A program made the position numbers and the translations under genes. A stretch of 64,000 nucleotides of DNA from Streptomyces paludis. GTDB lineage: Bacteria; Actinomycetota; Actinomycetes; Streptomycetales; Streptomycetaceae. Of the stretch, positions 19,027 through 30,952 are shown piece by piece. How positions within the stretch are numbered: position 1 is the first letter of the stretch; every line of letters starts with the position of its first letter. A model generated the notes under the pieces. It was not told where the DNA came from. It made no database searches and saw only the letters and a list, made by a program, of their open reading frames with translations. The DNA lies in the NCBI RefSeq assembly GCF_003344965.1, contig NZ_CP031194.1:2356001-2420000 (forward strand), given 5' to 3'.

Positions 19027-20088
19027 ATGCCGTACAGCGCCAGCGCGACCAGCGGACCGCTGCCCAGCCCGGGTCCCAGGACCCTGCCCCGCTGGTGGAC
19101 CGAACTGCTCCTGATAGTCGTGGTGTACGGCGCGTACTCGGGCGGCCGGCTGCTGGCCCGTGGCGATGTGTCGACGGCGGTCGATCACGGGCTGGCGATC
19201 CTGCGCATAGAGAAGATGTTCCTCCTCAACGCCGAGCACCCGCTCAACCGGCTCTTCACCAGCACCCCGGCGATCGGGATACCCGCCGACTTCATCTATG
19301 CCTCGCTGCACTATCTCGTCACTCCGGCCGTGCTGATCTGGATCTTCCGCCGCCGGCCCGCCGCCTACCGGGCGGCCCGTACCTGGCTGATGCTCTCCAC
19401 GCTCCTCGGCCTCGTCGGCTTCACCCTCCTGCCCACCTGCCCGCCCCGGCTGCTCGACGCCGGGCACGGGTTCGTCGACACGATGGCGCAGTACAGCTCG
19501 TACGGCTGGTGGGGCGCCGAGGCGAGCGCGCCGCGCGGGCTCGGCGGTATGACCAACCAGTACGCGGCGATGCCGAGCCTGCACGTCGGCTGGGCCCTGT
19601 GGTGCGGGCTGCTGCTGTGGAGGCACGCCCGTACGCCGCTGGTCCGGTGGCTGGGCCTGGCGTATCCGCTGCTGATCACGGTGGTGGTGATGGGGACCGC
19701 CAACCACTACTTCCTGGACGCGGTCGCGGGCTGCGCGGTGATGGGCCTGGGCGCGCTGCTGACCGCGCCGGGGATGCGCGCGGCGGCCCGCGCGCGGGCC
19801 TGGGCGGGGACCAGGACCGGAGCCACTTCCGGTGCCCGGGTGACGACGGAGAACACCGCCGCGCAGGGCGTGCCGTCCGCGTCGCCGGCACGGTCGTCCA
19901 CAGCCTCCGCCCCGCGTTCCGCCCCGATTGTCAGTGCCGGATGCGAGACTTCCGCGGGTGAGCGATTCCCTGAGCAGCGGACCCGCGCCAACAGCGCCGA
20001 CGACGGCGTCAGTGGCGTCGTCAGCGGTGGCAGCGGCGATGGCAGCAGCGCCTCCGCGGCGGACGACACTCCGGCGGCGACTCGCTGA
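19027..20088 (+). CDS. PAP2-superfamily membrane phosphatase/transferase
   Basis: A 353-residue protein with about six membrane helices between residues 20 and 240. The acid-phosphatase/AUR1-type motifs are visible: YAAMPSLHVGWAL (catalytic His) and NHYFLDAVAG (second His and Asp). The amino Arg/Lys-rich motif is weak, as in inositol-phosphotransferase-like PAP2 proteins. The last 95 residues are disordered Ala/Ser/Thr-rich. Its 3' end overlaps the start of the nuclease gene by about 130 bases in another frame. Confidence 0.85.
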   Translation: MPYSASATSGPLPSPGPRTLPRWWTELLLIVVVYGAYSGGRLLARGDVSTAVDHGLAILRIEKMFLLNAEHPLNRLFTSTPAIGIPADFIYASLHYLVTPAVLIWIFRRRPAAYRAARTWLMLSTLLGLVGFTLLPTCPPRLLDAGHGFVDTMAQYSSYGWWGAEASAPRGLGGMTNQYAAMPSLHVGWALWCGLLLWRHARTPLVRWLGLAYPLLITVVVMGTANHYFLDAVAGCAVMGLGALLTAPGMRAAARARAWAGTRTGATSGARVTTENTAAQGVPSASPARSSTASAPRSAPIVSAGCETSAGERFPEQRTRANSADDGVSGVVSGGSGDGSSASAADDTPAATR

Positions 20089-21223
20089 GCTGCGCGGTCC
20101 CGCCGTCGCGCCGCATCCGCTGGACGCCCGCGCGCTGGCCGCCCTCGCCGCCAACCCCGGCTGCCGGCGGCGCGCCCTGCTGGACGGCGCCGGGGTCGAC
20201 AAGTCGGCGCTCGCGGCGGCGCTCGGCTCGCCCGCGCCGTTCGGCCAGTCCCAGTTCGCCTTCATGCGCGGGAACGCGTTCGAGGCGAAGGTCAAGGCCG
20301 ACGGCGGTACGGAGCTGATGCGCCTCCTCGCCGAGCGCCTCGGCGACGGGGTCCCGGCGCCCGAGCCCGGCGAGGTGCTCGTCCCCGACCTCTCGGCGGC
20401 CGGTCCCGAGGGGCGTACGGCCCGTACGGCGCTGGCCCTGCGGGAGGCCACCGAGGCGGGCGCCTGGGCGCTGCTGGACCATCCGCTGCTCGCCCTGGAG
20501 GTCGCCGGCTCGCCCGCGTATCTGGAGCCGGACGCGGTCGTGGTGCGCCCCGACGGCCGGTGGACGGTCGTGGAGATCAAGTCCTTCCCGATGATCGACG
20601 GTTCCGCCGACGCGGCGAAGGTCGGCGCGGCGGCGCGGCAGGCCGCGGTGTACGTCCTGGCCCTGGACCGGGTCGCCGCCCGCACCCGGGGCGCCGAGGT
20701 CGGTGACCGCGTCCTGCTGGTCTGCCCGATGGACTTCTCGAACCTGCCGACCGCGTCCGTCGTGGACGTACGGAAGCAGTTGTCGGTGACGCGCCGTCAA
20801 CTGGCCCGGCTGACCCGGATCGAGGACATCGCCGCCGCGCTGCCCGAGGGCACCACGTTCGATGTGGGCGCCCGCACCGGCGAGGAGCTGACCACCGCCG
20901 TCGAATCCGTCGCCGCGGCCTACGCGCCCGAGTGCCTGGCCGCCTGCGAACTGGCCTTCCACTGCCGCTCCCGGGCCCGCGAGGCGGGCGCGGTGGAGGC
21001 GCTGGGCCGGAGCGTACGGGGCGAGCTGGGCGGTCTGACGACCGTCGCCGAGGTCCTCGCGGCGGCGCACGGCGAGGCGGGCGACCCGGCCGACCCGACG
21101 GTCGCGGCGCTGCGCAGGGCGGCGGCGCTGCGGGCGGAGGCCCTGGGCTCTGCCCGGACGAAGGCCCTGGGCTCCGCCCAAGCCGATGTGACGGGCACGA
21201 CGGGGGTGGCGGCATGTCGCTGA
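19958..21223 (+). CDS. RecB/Cas4/Dna2-like PD-(D/E)XK nuclease with probable Fe-S cluster
   Basis: About 421 residues. The RecB-nuclease motifs are in order: GNAFE near residue 109, YLEPDAVVV (Asp about 192), WTVVEIKSF (Glu about 206, Lys about 208) and RQAAVYVLAL with the QxxxY motif near 228. One Cys near 69 (NPGCRRR) and three at about 326, 330 and 336 (ECLAACELAFHC) match the one-plus-three layout of the iron-sulfur cluster in Cas4, AddB and Dna2. I choose GTG at 19958, but ATG at 20039 is possible; both lie inside the PAP2 gene. It overlaps the next gene by ten bases, so they are translationally coupled. Probably a DNA end-processing enzyme. Confidence 0.75.
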   Translation: MSDSLSSGPAPTAPTTASVASSAVAAAMAAAPPRRTTLRRRLAELRGPAVAPHPLDARALAALAANPGCRRRALLDGAGVDKSALAAALGSPAPFGQSQFAFMRGNAFEAKVKADGGTELMRLLAERLGDGVPAPEPGEVLVPDLSAAGPEGRTARTALALREATEAGAWALLDHPLLALEVAGSPAYLEPDAVVVRPDGRWTVVEIKSFPMIDGSADAAKVGAAARQAAVYVLALDRVAARTRGAEVGDRVLLVCPMDFSNLPTASVVDVRKQLSVTRRQLARLTRIEDIAAALPEGTTFDVGARTGEELTTAVESVAAAYAPECLAACELAFHCRSRAREAGAVEALGRSVRGELGGLTTVAEVLAAAHGEAGDPADPTVAALRRAAALRAEALGSARTKALGSAQADVTGTTGVAACR

Positions 21224-22791
21224 TCGGCACCCTGGCCCGGCTGGAGGCGGTGCACAGCGGGCGGGCCCAGCCGCTGGCCACCGTCCGGCACCGCCGTATC
21301 TCCGACCGGCCGCTCGTGCTCGTCCCGCTCAGCACCTCGGGCGAGGCCGGCGCCCCGCTCGGCGCGCTCGTCGGTACGGACCGGGACGCGCCCCGGCTGC
21401 TCGCGGTCGCGCAGCCGCGCGACCGCGATCTGCGGTTCGCGTTCCTCGGTGAGCTGGCCGAGGCCGTCCTGCCGCATCTGGACGCCCACGCCGATGTCGT
21501 CGAGCCCGCCGAGCGGAACGAGACCGACCCGGAGACCGGCAAGCGGGTCAAGGTCGAGGTCGAGCTGTGCGTGGACGCGCCGCAGCTGATCGTGCCGAGC
21601 CGGCCCGGTATCGACTTCGTCCGGCTGCTGGGCCGGTCCATGCGGTTCCGCCGCACCGCCGAGGACGACCCGGACGCGCCGTACCCCGCGCCCCCGCGCG
21701 TGCCGCTGCTCGGCCGCTGGCTCACGCACTACGGCGAGCGCGCCCGGGTGCCCGGGTCGTCCCTGCTGCTCGCGACGACCGATCTGCTCAACCGGCACTG
21801 GGCGACCGGCCAGTCCAGCCTGGAGGACCAGCACCTCGGCGCGCTGCTCGCCTGGCTCGACGCCCCGGCGGGAGCCTCCGGCGCGGAGGCCGCGCTCCAC
21901 GCGGAGCTGGACCGGGACCGGGAGGGCCAGTTGCGGTGCCCGCCCGCGGGCCCGGCGACGGACCCCGCCTTCGACAACCGGCTGCTGGCCCCGGCCATCG
22001 AAGCGTACGACCGCGCCCGCCAGGCGCTCGCGGCGGCCGAGGACGGACCGGGCGCGGAGGAGCAGCTCGCCCGGCTGACCGCGGCGGAGCGGCGGATCCG
22101 CGAGCTGCTGGCCGCCGTCATGCGGCCGACCTGGGACGCGGTCTGGCACAGCCTCGACCTGCTGCGGGAGCTGCCGGAGGGGCCGCGCGTCGGCGACCGC
22201 TGGACCCGCGACCGCTGGTCCTTCACCGGCCACCGCGACCGGGTCCGCGCGGGCGAGCCGCCGCAGCCGCGCCACGACGACGCGGTCACGGCCGCGCAGA
22301 AGCTGGCGTCCCGCGAGACGGCGCAGGCGCAGCTGGACGCCCAGGAGGCGCTGGACGATCCGCTGGTGCTGGCGGGCCGCCGGCTCTCCGGCGAGGCGTT
22401 CCTCTGCGAGGTGACGGAGGCCGTCATGGCCTACACCGAGACCAAACGCCCGAGCCCCCGGCCTCTCCTGACCGTCCGCACCGACGACGACCCGAGGCTG
22501 ACCGCCGGCACAAAGGTCTACCGCTCCCTGGACGGCAAGCCCCAGTCCGCGGAGTTCGTCCACGCAGTGCCCGCCGACGGCGTGCTCGTCCTGCGGCTGC
22601 TGGACCGCATGGGCCGCGGCCGGGAACCGGCCCCGGGCTCCGTGCCGGCCAAGGGCGACCGCATCGCCTGGACCCTCTTCGAGCACGACCAGCGCGGGGG
22701 CCCGAAGCTCCCGGCTCCGGAGGAGACCCCCTGGACCCATGGCGGCCCGCCGGCACCGCCGGGAGACGCGCTTCCCGGCGTGGGGCCGTAA
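21214..22791 (+). CDS. Unknown coiled-coil protein in the nuclease-helicase operon
   Basis: A 525-residue soluble protein with no domain I recognise by name. Residues 1-215 are mixed alpha/beta; 261-320 form a long amphipathic helix pair (AIEAYDRARQALAAAEDG ... AAERRIRELLAAVM); another helical run spans 354-400; 417-490 read like a small beta-barrel (AGTKVYRSLDGKPQ, DGVLVLRLL, KGDRIAWTLFE). Helices followed by a barrel, directly upstream of the helicase gene, resemble the stalk and 1B barrel of SF1B helicases. It starts inside the nuclease gene and lies in the same frame as the helicase, with one TAA and 17 sense codons between. Confidence 0.75.
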   Translation: MSLIGTLARLEAVHSGRAQPLATVRHRRISDRPLVLVPLSTSGEAGAPLGALVGTDRDAPRLLAVAQPRDRDLRFAFLGELAEAVLPHLDAHADVVEPAERNETDPETGKRVKVEVELCVDAPQLIVPSRPGIDFVRLLGRSMRFRRTAEDDPDAPYPAPPRVPLLGRWLTHYGERARVPGSSLLLATTDLLNRHWATGQSSLEDQHLGALLAWLDAPAGASGAEAALHAELDRDREGQLRCPPAGPATDPAFDNRLLAPAIEAYDRARQALAAAEDGPGAEEQLARLTAAERRIRELLAAVMRPTWDAVWHSLDLLRELPEGPRVGDRWTRDRWSFTGHRDRVRAGEPPQPRHDDAVTAAQKLASRETAQAQLDAQEALDDPLVLAGRRLSGEAFLCEVTEAVMAYTETKRPSPRPLLTVRTDDDPRLTAGTKVYRSLDGKPQSAEFVHAVPADGVLVLRLLDRMGRGREPAPGSVPAKGDRIAWTLFEHDQRGGPKLPAPEETPWTHGGPPAPPGDALPGVGP

Positions 22792-22842
22792 AAAACACCA
22801 AGCCCTTCCCCGAACCCGAACCGACCACGCCCCGGAGCCCAG

Positions 22843-24192
22843 ATGCCCCCGACCGCCCCTGCCGGCCCCGCCGATCCCGCCGTCGCCGCCGGTCTCGCGA
22901 CCGAGGCGATCCTCCGCGACACGCTCCACAGCCCCCACCGCGGCATCGTCGTCGACTCGCCGCCCGGGGCCGGGAAGTCGACGCTCGTCGTGCGGGCCGC
23001 GCTGGAGCTGGCGGCGGCCGGGCGCCCGCTGATGGTCGTCGCGCAGACGAACGCGCAGGTGGACGATCTCGTCGTGCGGCTCGCGGAGAAGAACGCCGAA
23101 CTGCCGGTCGGCCGACTGCACAGCAATGACGCCGATCCGTACGACAAGGCGCTGGACGCGCTGCCCTCCGTACGGAAGTCGGCGAAGGCCGCGGACCTCG
23201 CGGGGCTGGACGTCGTCGTGTCGACGGCCGCGAAGTGGGCGCATGTGCGGGTAACCGAGCCCTGGCGGCACGCGATCGTGGACGAGGCGTACCAGATGCG
23301 GTCGGACGCGCTGCTCGCCGTCGCGGGGCTCTTCGAGCGCGCGCTGTTCGTGGGGGACCCGGGCCAGCTGGACCCGTTCAGCGTGGTGGGCGCGGACCAG
23401 TGGGCGGGGCTGTCCTACGACCCGTCGGCGAGCGCCGTGTCGACGCTCCTGGCGCACAACCCGGAGCTGCCGCAGCACCGGCTGCCCGTCTCGTGGCGGC
23501 TGCCCGCGTCGGCCGCGCCGCTGGTGTCGGGCGCGTTCTATCCGTACACCCCGTTCCGCAGCGGTACGGGCCCGGGCGACCGGCGGCTCGCGTTCGGGGT
23601 GGCGTCGGACGGTTCGGGCCCGGACCGGGTGCTGGACGAGGCGGCCGAGTCGGGCTGGGGCCTGCTGGAACTGCCGGCCCGGCACACACCCCGTACGGAC
23701 CCGGAGGCGGTACGGGCGGTGGCCCAGGTCGTGCGCAGACTGCTGGACCGGGGCGCGGCGGCGACGAGCGAGCGGTCGCCGGATCCGGTGCCGGTGACGG
23801 CGGACCGGATCGCGGTCGGCACGGCCCACCGCGACCAGGCGGCGGCGGTCCGCGCGGCGCTGGCCGGGCTGGGGGTGAGCGGGGTGGCGGTGGACACGGC
23901 GAACCGGCTCCAGGGCCGCGAGTTCGATGTGACGGTCGTGCTGCACCCCCTCTCGGGCCGCCCGGACGCGACGGCATTCCATCTGGAGACGGGCCGGCTC
24001 TGCGTCCTCGCCTCCCGGCACCGCCACGCCTGCGTCGTGGTCTGCCGCGCGGGCGTCGCGGAGCTGCTCGACGAACACCCGTCGACGGAGCCGGTCCAGC
24101 TGGGCGTGACGGTGAAGTTCCCGGACGGCTGGGAGGCCAACCACGCGGTCCTGGCGGAACTCGCCGAACACCGCGTGAGCTGGCGTCCGTAA
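22843..24192 (+). CDS. SF1B (Upf1/Dna2-like) DNA helicase
   Basis: A 449-residue helicase core. Walker A is DSPPGAGKST (about 38-47), motif Ia VVAQTNAQVDDL, Walker B IVDEA (145-149), motif III LFVGDPGQLDP (168-178), motif IV SWRLP, motif V DTANRLQGREFD (351-362) and motif VI ASRHRHA (390-396). The motif spacing fits the Dna2/Upf1 branch but the 1B barrel and stalk usually inserted or preceding are missing, which the upstream protein may supply. With the nuclease two genes upstream the operon contains every catalytic part of a Dna2-type nuclease-helicase. Role is probably DNA repair, replication-fork processing or defence. Confidence 0.85.
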   Translation: MPPTAPAGPADPAVAAGLATEAILRDTLHSPHRGIVVDSPPGAGKSTLVVRAALELAAAGRPLMVVAQTNAQVDDLVVRLAEKNAELPVGRLHSNDADPYDKALDALPSVRKSAKAADLAGLDVVVSTAAKWAHVRVTEPWRHAIVDEAYQMRSDALLAVAGLFERALFVGDPGQLDPFSVVGADQWAGLSYDPSASAVSTLLAHNPELPQHRLPVSWRLPASAAPLVSGAFYPYTPFRSGTGPGDRRLAFGVASDGSGPDRVLDEAAESGWGLLELPARHTPRTDPEAVRAVAQVVRRLLDRGAAATSERSPDPVPVTADRIAVGTAHRDQAAAVRAALAGLGVSGVAVDTANRLQGREFDVTVVLHPLSGRPDATAFHLETGRLCVLASRHRHACVVVCRAGVAELLDEHPSTEPVQLGVTVKFPDGWEANHAVLAELAEHRVSWRP

Positions 24193-24767: not shown

Positions 24768-24853
24768 CGCAGGTTACGCGCATGCGTACCGTCCCGTCCC
24801 GGTTTTCGGAAACTCTCGGGAGCAGGATCGTCACTCCCGGTAGACATGAACGT

Positions 24854-25438
24854 ATGAGCGCATGGCTGCGAGACGAATCCCCCCACCGTCGCCCCGACAT
24901 CCTCGGCCTTCTCCGTGACGAGAGCCGCCACCAGACCGCCTACGTCACCCCCGCCGGAGCCGAGTGGCTGGCGTCCGCCGGACCGTACCCCCGCGCGACC
25001 CGTTCCCTCTGGGCCGCCCGGCCCGCCGCGCCGAGTGTGCTGCCGTGCGGCTCCGCCTTCGACGTGGTGAGCGCCCCGGTCGTGTTCGGCCGCCGGATGC
25101 TGGACCGGCTGTGGTGCGACGGGCCCGGCTCGGGGCCGGTCGCCGAGCACCGGAGCCGTACGCTCCTGTTCGCCGCGCCGGGCACCGCGCAGCGGCTGCC
25201 GTCGCTGCTGTCCTGGGAGGAGTGGGGCAGCGGCCGGGGCAGCGCGCCGCCGCCGCTGCTCTGCCACGGCGCCGGTGACGCCGTGACCGTACCGCCGCTG
25301 ACGCCGGGCCCGGCGGCGGGTCCGCGCTGGCTGGTCGCCCCCGACACCCGGCATCCATGGCTGCCCGGCCCCGAGGTGCTGCTCTGGGCGTGCGTACGGG
25401 CCGCGCGGGCCGCCGCGCGTACCGCCCTGACCACCTGA
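24854..25438 (+). CDS. Short primase/polymerase-like protein of unknown function
   Basis: A 194-residue protein of the type labelled bifunctional DNA primase/polymerase in Streptomyces. It shows FDVVSAPVVFGRRMLDRLW, RTLLFAAPGTAQRLPSLLSW, PPLLCHGAGDAVTVP and a WLVAPDTRHPWLPGPEVLLW ending. These follow the order of prim-pol amino domains, but I do not see the paired catalytic aspartates, so it is probably not a polymerase. The start ATG is at 24854. A palindrome sits upstream, and tRNA-Lys follows downstream. Confidence 0.65.
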   Translation: MSAWLRDESPHRRPDILGLLRDESRHQTAYVTPAGAEWLASAGPYPRATRSLWAARPAAPSVLPCGSAFDVVSAPVVFGRRMLDRLWCDGPGSGPVAEHRSRTLLFAAPGTAQRLPSLLSWEEWGSGRGSAPPPLLCHGAGDAVTVPPLTPGPAAGPRWLVAPDTRHPWLPGPEVLLWACVRAARAAARTALTT

Positions 25439-27305: not shown

Positions 27306-29372
27306 GTGAGCGGAACCTCCGAAGGGCCGCGACCCGCGGCAGTCGCGGCGGCCGGCACCGTACGACAATCCGTGACGGAGAGTCACGTTCTCGGTAGAGA
27401 ACTCACAGCCGAGGCGGAGCCGGAGGCCGAACCCGAGACCGGGACCGCCGCACCCGTCGTGTCCGGCACGTCCGCCGGGACCACCGCGTCCGCGCCCGGC
27501 CCGGCCGCCGCGGCGCGCGACTACCGCGCCGCGTTCCAGATCGCCCAGCTCGCGATGGCCGTCGTGGACCACGAGGGCGCGGTCGTCCGCGCCAATGACG
27601 CGCTGGGCGCGCTCCTCGGCACGGAACCCGCCGCGCTGCGCCGACGGCCCGCGGCCGACCTCGTCGACCTCGCCTCCGACAGCCGCACCTGGCACTCCTA
27701 CCGCCAGGTGCTGGACAACCGGCGCGCCCGGTTCCGCTGCACCCGCCGGCTCAAGCACGCCGACGGGCGGACGGTCTGGGCCGAGGTGACCGTCGCCCCC
27801 GTACCCGGGAGCGGCGACATCCTGCTGTCGGTCACGGACATCAGCGACCGGCGCGAACTCCAGGCGCGGCTGCGCCATCTCCAGATGCACGACTCGGTGA
27901 CCCTGCTGCCGAACCGGGCCCTGTTCTTCGAACGGCTCGCCTCCGCGCTGGAGTCGGCGTCGGGCGGCATGGGGGCCTTCGACCCGGCGACCCGGCCGTA
28001 CGGCGACGCCGGGGCCGGTGGCGGCGCGGGCGGCGCGGCCGATAGCAGAGCGGACGGCGTCGTGGACGGCGGCGCGCGCCGCAGGGGGGATGGCAGAACA
28101 GGGCGGATCGGTCTCTGCTATCTGGATCTCGACGGTTTCAAGGCCGTCAACGACACCCTCGGGCACCGCACCGGCGACCGGCTGCTCGCCGCCGTCGCCA
28201 GCCGGCTGACCGAGTGCGCCGAGCACGACGAGCACGACGACCGCACCGGCGGCGGGGGCCATCTGGTGGCCCGGCTCGGCGGGGACGAGTTCGCGGTCCT
28301 CGTCGAGGACTCCACCGGTACGGAGCAGCTCGCCGGCCTCGCCCGCCGGATCCTCGCCGCGCTCCAGCGCCCGTTCGACCTGGCCGGGCAGCGGCTGTCG
28401 ATGTCCGCGTCGATCGGGGTCGTGGAGCGCGCGGCCGAAGGCACCACGCCGACCGGTCTGATGCAGGCCGCCGACACCACGCTGTACTGGGCGAAGGCGG
28501 ACGGCAAGGCGCGCTGGACGCTCTTCGACCCGGAGCGCAACGCCCACCGGATGACCCGGCAGGCGCTCAGCTCGACGCTGCGGCCGGCCGTCGAGCGCGA
28601 GGAGTTCGTCCTCCAGTACCAGCCGCTGGTGGGGATGGCCGACGGAGTGGTGCGCGGGGTGGAGGCGCTGGTGCGCTGGAACCACCCGCAGTTCGGGACT
28701 CTCGCGCCGAATCGGTTCGTCGGGATCGCCGAGGAGGACGGCTCGATCGTGCAGCTCGGGCGGTGGGTGCTGCGGACCGCGTGCCGCCAGGCGCGCCGCT
28801 GGCAGCTGGACCACCCGGGCGTGGCGCCGCTCTTCGTCAGCGTCAATGTGGCCGTCCGGCAGGTCTGGGACTCGGATCTGGTCGCGGATGTCGCCGGGAT
28901 CCTCGCCGAGACGGGGCTCGCGCCCGACCTGCTGCAACTGGAGCTGACCGAGTCCGCGGTGATGGGCTCCGCGGGCCGCCCGCTCCAGGCGCTCCAGGCG
29001 CTGAGCAACATGGGGGTGCGGATCGCCATCGACGATTTCGGCACCGGCTACTCGAATCTCGCGTATCTGAGCAGGCTGCCCGTGTCGGTCCTCAAGCTGG
29101 ACGGCTCGTTCGTCCGGGGCTTCCGCTACGACGAGGGGGTGCACCCGAGCCCGGCCGACGAGACGATCGTCGAGGCGCTCGTCCAGCTCGCGCACCGGCT
29201 GGGGCTGACGGTCACCGCCGAGTGCGTGGAGACCTCGGGCCAGGCCGCGCGTCTCCAGCGGATCGGCTGCGACACGGGCCAGGGCTGGCTGTTCTCCCGT
29301 CCGGTCGCGCCGGAGCGCATCGCGGAGATGATCGTGGCCCTGGACACCAGTCGCGTCACACCAGGCGCCTGA
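27306..29372 (+). CDS. cdgA: PAS-GGDEF-EAL cyclic-di-GMP enzyme CdgA
   Basis: A 688-residue cytoplasmic protein. A variable leader is followed by PAS (about 72-190), GGDEF (RLGGDEFAVL near 322) and EAL (EALVRWNHP near 454, DDFGTGYSNL near 578) domains; both catalytic signatures are intact, so synthesis and breakdown of c-di-GMP are both possible. A 45-residue Gly/Ala/Asp-rich insert sits inside the GGDEF domain after LPNRALFFERL. Position and architecture match S. coelicolor CdgA, a BldD target that controls development. A BldD-like box lies 67 bases inside this reading, so the true start could be further downstream. No RxxD inhibitory site precedes GGDEF. Confidence 0.88.
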   Translation: MSGTSEGPRPAAVAAAGTVRQSVTESHVLGRELTAEAEPEAEPETGTAAPVVSGTSAGTTASAPGPAAAARDYRAAFQIAQLAMAVVDHEGAVVRANDALGALLGTEPAALRRRPAADLVDLASDSRTWHSYRQVLDNRRARFRCTRRLKHADGRTVWAEVTVAPVPGSGDILLSVTDISDRRELQARLRHLQMHDSVTLLPNRALFFERLASALESASGGMGAFDPATRPYGDAGAGGGAGGAADSRADGVVDGGARRRGDGRTGRIGLCYLDLDGFKAVNDTLGHRTGDRLLAAVASRLTECAEHDEHDDRTGGGGHLVARLGGDEFAVLVEDSTGTEQLAGLARRILAALQRPFDLAGQRLSMSASIGVVERAAEGTTPTGLMQAADTTLYWAKADGKARWTLFDPERNAHRMTRQALSSTLRPAVEREEFVLQYQPLVGMADGVVRGVEALVRWNHPQFGTLAPNRFVGIAEEDGSIVQLGRWVLRTACRQARRWQLDHPGVAPLFVSVNVAVRQVWDSDLVADVAGILAETGLAPDLLQLELTESAVMGSAGRPLQALQALSNMGVRIAIDDFGTGYSNLAYLSRLPVSVLKLDGSFVRGFRYDEGVHPSPADETIVEALVQLAHRLGLTVTAECVETSGQAARLQRIGCDTGQGWLFSRPVAPERIAEMIVALDTSRVTPGA
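27373..27386. promoter_or_regulatory. BldD-like box at the start of cdgA
   Basis: TGACGGAGAGTCAC matches the BldD consensus TNACNC(A/T)GNGTNA at all fixed positions but one and sits within the CGTGAC/GTCACG inverted repeat. cdgA is a known BldD target in S. coelicolor. It lies just after the predicted translation start. Confidence 0.55.
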
Positions 29373-30795
29373 TCTCGCCGCGCACCCGGTAGAAGCCCGC
29401 CCTGGCCGGGTGCAGGGAGTCGACCACATAGCGGGTGCCGGCCTCGCGTATGCCGCGCGGGAACTGCACGTTCCACGAAGGCTCGTAGCCGTCCGAGACG
29501 ACCTGGACGCGGAGCCGGCCGCCCGCGTCGACGCACTCCACGACCACTCCGCCGGCCGGGGCGGCGCTCACCGTCGCGACCGTACGCACCGAGGTGGCCG
29601 GGGTGTAGGTGGGCAGCGCGGCGGCCGACTTGACGTCCATGGCGACGGGGACGGTGCCCTCCTGGGCGGCGGCGATCGCGGCGGGGCTCGCGTCGACGCA
29701 GACCAGGGTGCCGTCGGTGGTGACCATGTACAGCTTGTCGTCCAGGAACTGCATGGAGAGCGCCGAGCCGCCGCCCGTGCCCAGCTTCCACAGCCGTGTC
29801 CCGTCGGCGTCGAAGCAGTAGACCGAGGAGGAGCGGTCGCCGGCGAAGACATGGCGCCCGTCCGGCGCGGTCGCGCACGAGTAGACCGTCCCGTCACAGC
29901 GGTAGGTCGCCTCGATCGCGCCGGTGGTCTTGGCGAGCCGCTGCACGACATGGCTGGACGTGCCCGCGTACACCGCGTCGTCCTCCTGCCAGCCGAAGAG
30001 CACCCCGCCCTTCGTCCGGGTGTGCCACAGCTCCCCGGCGCCGCCCGGCTCGTACGCCGTGACGCCGTCGCCGTGCCCGTGGTAGACGGCGCGGTCGTCG
30101 GCGCGCACCATCCAGCCGTACGAGCCGGTGGACTTACGGGCCCACTGGTGCTCGTCCTCGTGGTTGATGACCGTCAGGCCGCCGTTGTGGTCCGAGACGT
30201 TCAGCACGCCCTCGTGGATGTCCAGCCAGAAGATGTCGACGTCCGGCGCGATGTCGTACGCGGCGAAGGGCAGCTTGGACGAGAGGTCGTAGACCTTGCC
30301 GTCGTCGCAGCCGGCGTAGATCCAGAAGTCGTCCGCCACCAGGCACTTGACGCCGTCGGGGAGCGCGTAGCGGGAGAGGACCTCGCCGCTGTGGCTGAGC
30401 GTGTAGACGTCCCCCGCCTGATTGCCCACCCAGCAGTGGTCCTCGTCGATGTGGATGCCGAACGCCGCCGAGCCCGTACGGAACCGCCACAGCACCGGGG
30501 CGACGGAGCGGGACGTGGTGGGCGCCGAGGAGACCTCACGGCGGGTGACCGGGCGGGCCGCGCGCTGCCCCTCGACGGCCGGGGCGTACCCCTTGCGGAT
30601 CTTCTCGCCGATCTTCTTGGCCGCCGCCGCCTCCGCCTTGGCCCGCGTGGGGAAGGACGAGGTCTGGGCCTGGCCGCCGGCGCCGATCCGTCCGTACCGC
30701 ACGGAGACGACGGTGTCCTCGACGATCACCTCGTAGAACTTGTGTGCCCCGGCGCCGTCCTGCGACAGCTCCAGATACGTCCTCGTACGCGACAT
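29356..30795 (-). CDS. WGR-domain protein with PQQ-like beta-propeller
   Basis: A 479-residue cytoplasmic protein. Residues 1-75 are a WGR domain (YLELSQDGAGAHKFYEVI, VSVRYGRIGAGGQ, FPTRAKAEAAAAKKIGEKIRKGY), a fold seen in PARPs and bacterial nucleic-acid-linked proteins. From about 100 to 400 it forms a WD/PQQ-type propeller with repeated strands such as HCWVGNQAGDVYTLSHSGEV and HVFAGDRSSSVYCFDADGT. A small carboxy beta domain follows. ATG at 30795 gives a clean WGR start. Its 3' end overlaps the convergent cdgA by 17 bases. Function unknown; a DNA- or RNA-linked sensor or scaffold is a guess. Confidence 0.8.
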   Translation of the reverse strand: MSRTRTYLELSQDGAGAHKFYEVIVEDTVVSVRYGRIGAGGQAQTSSFPTRAKAEAAAAKKIGEKIRKGYAPAVEGQRAARPVTRREVSSAPTTSRSVAPVLWRFRTGSAAFGIHIDEDHCWVGNQAGDVYTLSHSGEVLSRYALPDGVKCLVADDFWIYAGCDDGKVYDLSSKLPFAAYDIAPDVDIFWLDIHEGVLNVSDHNGGLTVINHEDEHQWARKSTGSYGWMVRADDRAVYHGHGDGVTAYEPGGAGELWHTRTKGGVLFGWQEDDAVYAGTSSHVVQRLAKTTGAIEATYRCDGTVYSCATAPDGRHVFAGDRSSSVYCFDADGTRLWKLGTGGGSALSMQFLDDKLYMVTTDGTLVCVDASPAAIAAAQEGTVPVAMDVKSAAALPTYTPATSVRTVATVSAAPAGGVVVECVDAGGRLRVQVVSDGYEPSWNVQFPRGIREAGTRYVVDSLHPARAGFYRVRGEIRRLV

Positions 30796-30952
30796 GGCAG
30801 ACCTCTCCCCCACGTGGAGGTGCGGCGGCCGGTCCGCCGCACCCACTACGAGAACGCTACGAGGGGGCACTGACAATCGGCCCTGACCTGCGACAACGCC
30901 CGCCGCACAGCGGACCGTTCACGCCCGCGCCACTCCGTCGGCGCGGCCCGCG

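Follow-up and report, generated by a model that had tools for sequence, protein, structure and literature searches.

We examined 64,000 nucleotides of the Streptomyces paludis genome (G000:C1:2356001-2420000, hereafter the window; the whole genome, G000, measures 8.45 Mb), in which an original prediction made from the letters alone had seen a Dna2-like machine split over a nuclease, a coiled-coil protein and a helicase. The three same-strand open reading frames (ORFs) on which it relied are confirmed across 19958-24192, at the positions given then. The first, which we call Nuc, runs on the forward strand from a GTG at 19958 to 21223 (421 aa), the second, Mid, from an ATG at 21214 to 22791 (525 aa) and the third, Hel, from 22843 to 24192 (449 aa). 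Nuc and Mid overlap by 10 nt and 51 nt separate Mid from Hel, so that the genes of this trio do overlap or nearly touch. A frame of the opposite strand is open for 1083 codons at 20920-24171; since the three forward-strand proteins are conserved across families, we take it as a mere shadow of high GC content.

Predicted functions of the three proteins

The Nuc sequence contains the complete D, ExK and QxxxY residues of a RecB-type active site (D192, E206-x-K208 and Q228-x3-Y232) and four cysteines of the iron-sulfur (Fe-S) type, one before the nuclease core (C69) and three after it (C326, C330 and C336), which is precisely the combination announced by the original prediction. These four cysteines are invariant in 23/23 aligned homologues and in 51/51 rows of a second set, whereas C256 and C420 show no such conservation. 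The active site is present in the window protein and in the core rows, and is not intact in 12 of the 51 rows, all of which belong to a second form of the locus marked by a fourth gene, X. It is this motif pattern that leads us to assign Nuc as a predicted RecB-type PD-(D/E)XK nuclease with a Dna2/AddB-like cysteine pattern, the library matches being all below cut-off: PDDEXK_1 is matched at E 0.031, and weakly by 7 of the 23 homologues (best E 0.0015). A response-regulator identity, suggested by another sub-cut-off match (E 0.0011), was rejected as chance.

Hel matches AAA_11, AAA_30 and AAA_12 above the Pfam cut-offs, and among solved proteins its profile comes closest to SMUBP-2/IGHMBP2 (E 1e-10 over positions 24-89) and to mouse DNA2 (E 2e-9 over positions 26-185), in agreement with the superfamily 1B (SF1B) helicase core expected for the third gene. 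Its Walker A motif stands at residue ~40 and therefore leaves no room in front for a 1B domain; Hel is predicted to be a minimal Upf1/Dna2-like core (1A, 2A) devoid of stalk and 1B barrel. Conserved motifs include SPPGAGK, DEAYQ and GDPGQLDPF as well as, with few exceptions, NRLQGRE, all of which we take to be helicase motifs. Against PADLOC-DB 2.0.0, Hel gives partial helicase matches only, with weak similarity to the PLuB, Mko and Hhe helicases. At one locus of the collection (L099, 10778-12397 in G154) the helicase frame is seemingly broken near its end.

Mid had been described as a gene without known family, and it is still so: its best Pfam match has an E value of 0.09 and none was found in NCBIfam or PADLOC, although among the best 120 matches it is 78-89% identical to named Streptomyces proteins. 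An AlphaFold2 model (predicted local distance difference test score of 87) places at residues 355-506 (22276-22731) a helix followed by a beta barrel; residues 1-354 (21214-22275) form an alpha/beta N-terminal region with long helices, in which an RNase H-like fold is possible, though we are unsure of it. In a fold search with the helix and barrel, IGHMBP2, senataxin and Sen1 came nearest, and the top five rows were all Upf1-like SF1B helicases with stalk and 1B domain. Far from being a confident structure unrelated to a helicase barrel, the model thus supports, with unrelated barrels scoring within 1 Z, the view that the C-terminal part of Mid resembles the stalk and 1B domain of these enzymes and that Mid carries the part that Hel lacks, encoded between nuclease and helicase as a separate protein.

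Joint inheritance of the trio

The three genes are inherited together as a unit. Profile searches found Nuc, Mid and Hel each in the same 48 of 296 Actinomycetes genomes (Hel at E <= 1e-30 to exclude other helicases, the best match per genome being 1e-167 or stronger), hence outside the lineage of the window; the surveyed genomes are related and these counts are not independent events. Within Streptomyces, Mid was found in 99/101 genomes, the misses being G037 and the 82%-complete G050, and Streptomyces G328 is without Nuc, Mid and Hel alike. Pairwise distances of the three proteins correlate at 0.89-0.95 over 51 chosen loci that hold all three together, a set that omits broken, duplicate and Hel-less loci (e.g., L040, L044, L099, L101, L102, L196 and L198) and most near-identical core loci. 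In G190 and G290, two genomes of one family that count among the 48, Nuc and Mid stand side by side with Hel ~36 and ~49 kb away, and the trio matches of draft genome G246 are split over two contigs. Besides Streptomyces, the best 120 matches include named homologues from Streptosporangiaceae, Micromonosporaceae and Frankiaceae; nearly all named homologues of the trio are annotated as hypothetical or secreted protein.

The surroundings of the window trio deserve a brief mention. A GGDEF-EAL gene lies at 27306-29372, and in the two genomes with a distant Hel (G190 and G290) such a gene comes directly after Mid (L101) or next but one (L102), so that this neighbourhood looks shared. A Prim-Pol-like gene at 24782-25438 and three copies of tRNA-Lys (25538, 35898 and 40188) are possible traces of integrated elements.

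A DNA-damage-type promoter

Upstream of Nuc, at 19928-19950 of the forward strand, we found TTGTCAGTG-N8-GAGACT, one mismatch away from tTGTCRgtg-8nt-TannnT, the mycobacterial consensus described as a LexA-independent damage promoter (RecA-NDp/PafBC type; PMC5656591). The window holds 3 matches at one mismatch or less, against 0.07 expected. A motif score of at least 10/12 is reached in 102/111 core Streptomyces loci, the window locus included (spacers 7-9, 260-nt stretches), against 24/3000 random windows (spacer 8 only, 280-nt stretches of other loci). In 104 loci selected because they hold the motif, conservation is 0.92 for the motif columns versus 0.53 for the 60 nt upstream, and in 102 of them the motif ends 7 nt before an in-frame GTG of Nuc, no start being found in the other two; this spacing, which is also that of the window, backs the GTG at 19958 as the start of Nuc. 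The frame of a PAP2-family gene (19027-20088) extends 131 nt into Nuc and crosses the promoter, and the PAP2 frame likewise passes the motif start in 95/95 loci with a PAP2 match. In a scan of 48 loci that bear X or come from other families, the stretches before X, Nuc and SbcD all scored below 10.

At the scale of the S. paludis genome, a relaxed pattern written after the window site was seen (TTGTCRGTG-N9-A-N3-T) occurs at 57 sites versus 2 for the reversed pattern, and one of these sites stands 65 bp before the recA match, which serves as positive control. The 57 sites are candidates for a PafBC-type regulon in Streptomyces, where a RecA-NDp promoter has been reported before SCO6735 of S. 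coelicolor (PMC5087735). Taken with the motif before Nuc, they suggest that the trio operon of Streptomyces is probably switched on by DNA damage. A full-match site of the same type is located at 30854-30876 on the minus strand, before a gene with WGR domain and beta-propeller (29356-30876, minus strand); because the listed start of this ORF overlaps the site, its true start is probably downstream.

A second form with gene X and SbcD

Neither this promoter nor what follows (gene X, the copies linked to SbcD close to replicon ends and the branch with a decayed nuclease) had been covered by the original prediction. X encodes ~280 aa directly before Nuc and was first seen in plasmid and subtelomeric paralogues; two examples gave no Pfam family over cut-off. 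It occurs in 9/101 Streptomyces, exactly those with a second Mid, in 32/392 Streptomyces at E <= 1e-20, and in 15 of the 296 Actinomycetes genomes surveyed for the trio: 13 times beside the trio, once as a fragment (G363) and once as a decayed copy in a trio-less genome (G183). Over 38 loci, the distances of X correlate at 0.92-0.95 with those of each of Nuc, Mid and Hel.

We read the surroundings of X more widely in 30 of these 32 Streptomyces genomes: 17 have a divergent SbcD match adjoining X and 13 have none. Of the 17, 16 also have a match, sometimes partial, to an SbcC-like structural maintenance of chromosomes (SMC) protein, while G022 has neither a full SbcD nor an SMC match. SbcD was not seen in the remaining two of the 32, G502 and G605, of which only short flanks were available. 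In quick tree builds supported by SH-aLRT (Shimodaira-Hasegawa-like approximate likelihood ratio test) only, the 19 SbcD-linked rows form one side of a branch (99; 89 in the Nuc tree and 95 in the Hel tree), and L105, without SbcD, falls inside or beside them. Six loci (L039, L040, L050, L197, L206 and L207), several at replicon ends, have SbcD before X and the trio and JetABCD (Wadjet) genes after them, complete or cut, some by the end of the stretch (checked against PADLOC for L039).

When contig ends are taken as chromosome ends, 4 of the 11 genomes with an X form on a contig over 4 Mb have it less than 25 kb from an end (G093, 4.7 kb; G579, 6.7 kb; G049, 24.1 kb; G417, 24.3 kb) and the other 7 have it over 500 kb inside; G611, whose contig measures 1.2 Mb and whose copy stands 44.9 kb from the end, was left out of the count. 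The binomial probability is 3e-7 if positions are uniform and 2e-5 if they are confined to the arms, with a 25-kb limit set post hoc. G579, G049 and G417 carry the X form at both ends, in inverted copies that are identical across 16.4, 14.1 and 15.6 kb or more, respectively. The end-near copies are all SbcD-linked (4/5 of linked versus 0/6 of unlinked; Fisher 0.015). As regards plasmids, the X form is 10.7 kb from the end of linear NZ_CP108489 and 2.3 kb from the end of the record NZ_CP027023, although the latter carries a circular flag.

The presence of SbcD also goes along with the state of the nuclease: among the Streptomyces X loci of the 51 chosen loci the active site is intact in 18/18 with SbcD and decayed in 11/13 without (Fisher 9e-7, ignoring relatedness). 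The 11 decayed rows, all without SbcD, are one clade (L046, L047, L054, L055, L199-L203, L212 and L213), in which 7 read D-L-R and 4 read Q-E-R with the Y lost, K208R being common to both; all keep the four cysteines. L204 and L205 have an intact site despite the lack of SbcD. In other families, X loci without SbcD mostly retain an intact site, and L106 has decayed independently (A-K, Q to E).

Discussion

The order of the genes is that of the domains in eukaryotic Dna2, described from the mouse structure as an Fe-S-stapled RecB-type nuclease, a barrel and stalk, and an Upf1-like SF1B helicase (PMC4716839). The proposal that the parts of Dna2 are spread here over three proteins is supported, with the barrel assigned by model. 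However, Dna2 is one polypeptide, Mid carries ~350 extra N-terminal residues and the second form has a fourth gene, X; because the trio consists of three ORFs, we consider it Dna2-like in its predicted working and do not class it as Dna2. Bad of Geobacillus, a Dna2-like helicase-nuclease similar to DNA2 with an Fe-S cluster and four cysteines, is likewise described as one enzyme, whereas the trio is three proteins; the main text on Bad does not mention Streptomyces or Actinobacteria (PMC7430649). The TM0106 family (TIGR03491) joins a RecB-like nuclease to an SF1B helicase, in most rows over cut-off as one long open frame. Its helicase part aligns with the Hel profile (hhalign probability 99, E 7e-17), and Nuc and Mid have no significant match to 20 TM0106-type frames, some of them cut. 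We rejected membership in this family: at E <= 1, none of Nuc, Mid and Hel matches TIGR03491, which has no match in the window genome at E 0.001 either. TM0106-type proteins over cut-off occur in 59/197 genomes (G101-G289 sample), only one of which (G130) has the trio; this rarity of co-occurrence, genome relatedness being uncontrolled, hints at replacement. IGHMBP2, UPF1 and senataxin resemble the trio in the SF1B core and in the stalk and 1B barrel predicted for Mid, but have barrel and core in one chain, unlike Mid and Hel, and to our knowledge no RecB-type nuclease partner. The helicases of AddAB and AdnAB are of UvrD type, and Hel matches UvrD-helicase only at E 0.063, below cut-off, so that membership in this group was rejected too. 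The trio shares with these complexes the association of a helicase with an Fe-S RecB-type nuclease (AddB; PMC4716839). As for known anti-phage systems, Nuc and Mid have no match in PADLOC-DB 2.0.0 at E <= 1.

From the parts, their linkage, the Mid model and the promoter motif, we infer assembly, polarity, substrate and induction as follows. Mid would dock on Hel, completing a 5'-3' single-strand motor, and bridge it to Nuc, so that single-stranded DNA may be pulled into the nuclease tunnel. DNA damage would turn on the Streptomyces operon through the PafBC-type promoter, and the complex would act on DNA ends, flaps or stalled forks. In the second form, X and SbcCD may add an end binder of Mre11-Rad50 (MR) type, analogous to resection by MR and Dna2. 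Against the barrel assignment, ribosomal L3 barrels, which are unrelated, score within 1 Z of the best fold rows of Mid, and Dna2 itself is not among the best 50 rows of that search. Against the promoter reading, an initial search is reported to have suggested a lack of conservation of the mycobacterial motif in S. venezuelae (PMC9380542). The tie with unrelated barrels and the absence of Dna2 slightly lower our confidence, and we give a probability of roughly 0.6 to the core copy of the trio being a damage-induced, multi-subunit Dna2-like complex that processes DNA ends, flaps or stalled forks. The original prediction had not decided between repair, fork processing and defence; the promoter and the near-universal presence in Streptomyces lead us to favour repair for the window copy.

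It is tempting to see in the locus an anti-phage or anti-plasmid defence whose complex degrades incoming DNA, inasmuch as X-bearing copies are accessory in Streptomyces (32/392), occur on two plasmid records of that genus and adjoin a complete or cut Wadjet set in six loci, and Hel weakly resembles helicases of the PADLOC collection. Yet Mid is near-universal in Streptomyces, at a locus that follows a PAP2 gene (95 loci where it was found) and has a DNA-damage-type promoter in front. Moreover, Nuc and Mid are covered by no PADLOC model, and a tblastn search of 50,697 phage records with Mid, the only trio member searched, gave nothing at E 1e-5. We hold defence to be unlikely as a general explanation: it is less likely for the core copy and stays open for the neighbourhoods that combine X, SbcCD and Wadjet.

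These same neighbourhoods raise a bolder option, that SbcCD, X and the trio together process or protect the telomeric ends of linear replicons, some streptomycete telomere classes being reported without known end-patching proteins (PMC8743542). The end-near X copies, all SbcD-linked and in three of four genomes present at both ends, speak for it, as do the two plasmids. However, accessory genes gather near ends anyway, X is restricted to few Streptomyces, most X copies on large contigs lie far inside and the window copy is internal. The trio is moreover shared by Streptosporangiaceae, Micromonosporaceae and Frankiaceae, whose chromosomes are mostly circular, and end maintenance appears quite improbable to us. 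Slightly more improbable still is an RNA or R-loop enzyme of Upf1/senataxin type, to which the best folds and sequences of Mid and Hel could point through SETX, Sen1 and UPF1, given a partner with RecB-type site and Dna2/AddB-like cysteines, an SbcD-linked second form and a DNA-damage-type promoter.

Returning to the damage-induced Dna2-like complex, a wider and rather doubtful extension would be that Actinomycetes hold a complete, separable analogue of MR and Dna2 resection, with a three-protein Dna2, its barrel in trans, X, and its own SbcCD near linear ends; the core would then be housekeeping repair induced by damage, the end-borne copy would tend linear ends and the third branch would be a nuclease-dead motor. 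Be that as it may, the operon, near-universal in the antibiotic-producing Streptomyces, appears to encode a DNA-processing complex that has not been described before. With motor, barrel and nuclease on different chains, the trio would amount to a Dna2 taken apart by nature, in which the contribution of each part is testable singly, and the nuclease-decayed branch offers a ready natural comparison. The promoter of the trio would strengthen the case for a PafBC-type damage regulon in Streptomyces, and the trio itself is a candidate for the processing of linear chromosome ends.

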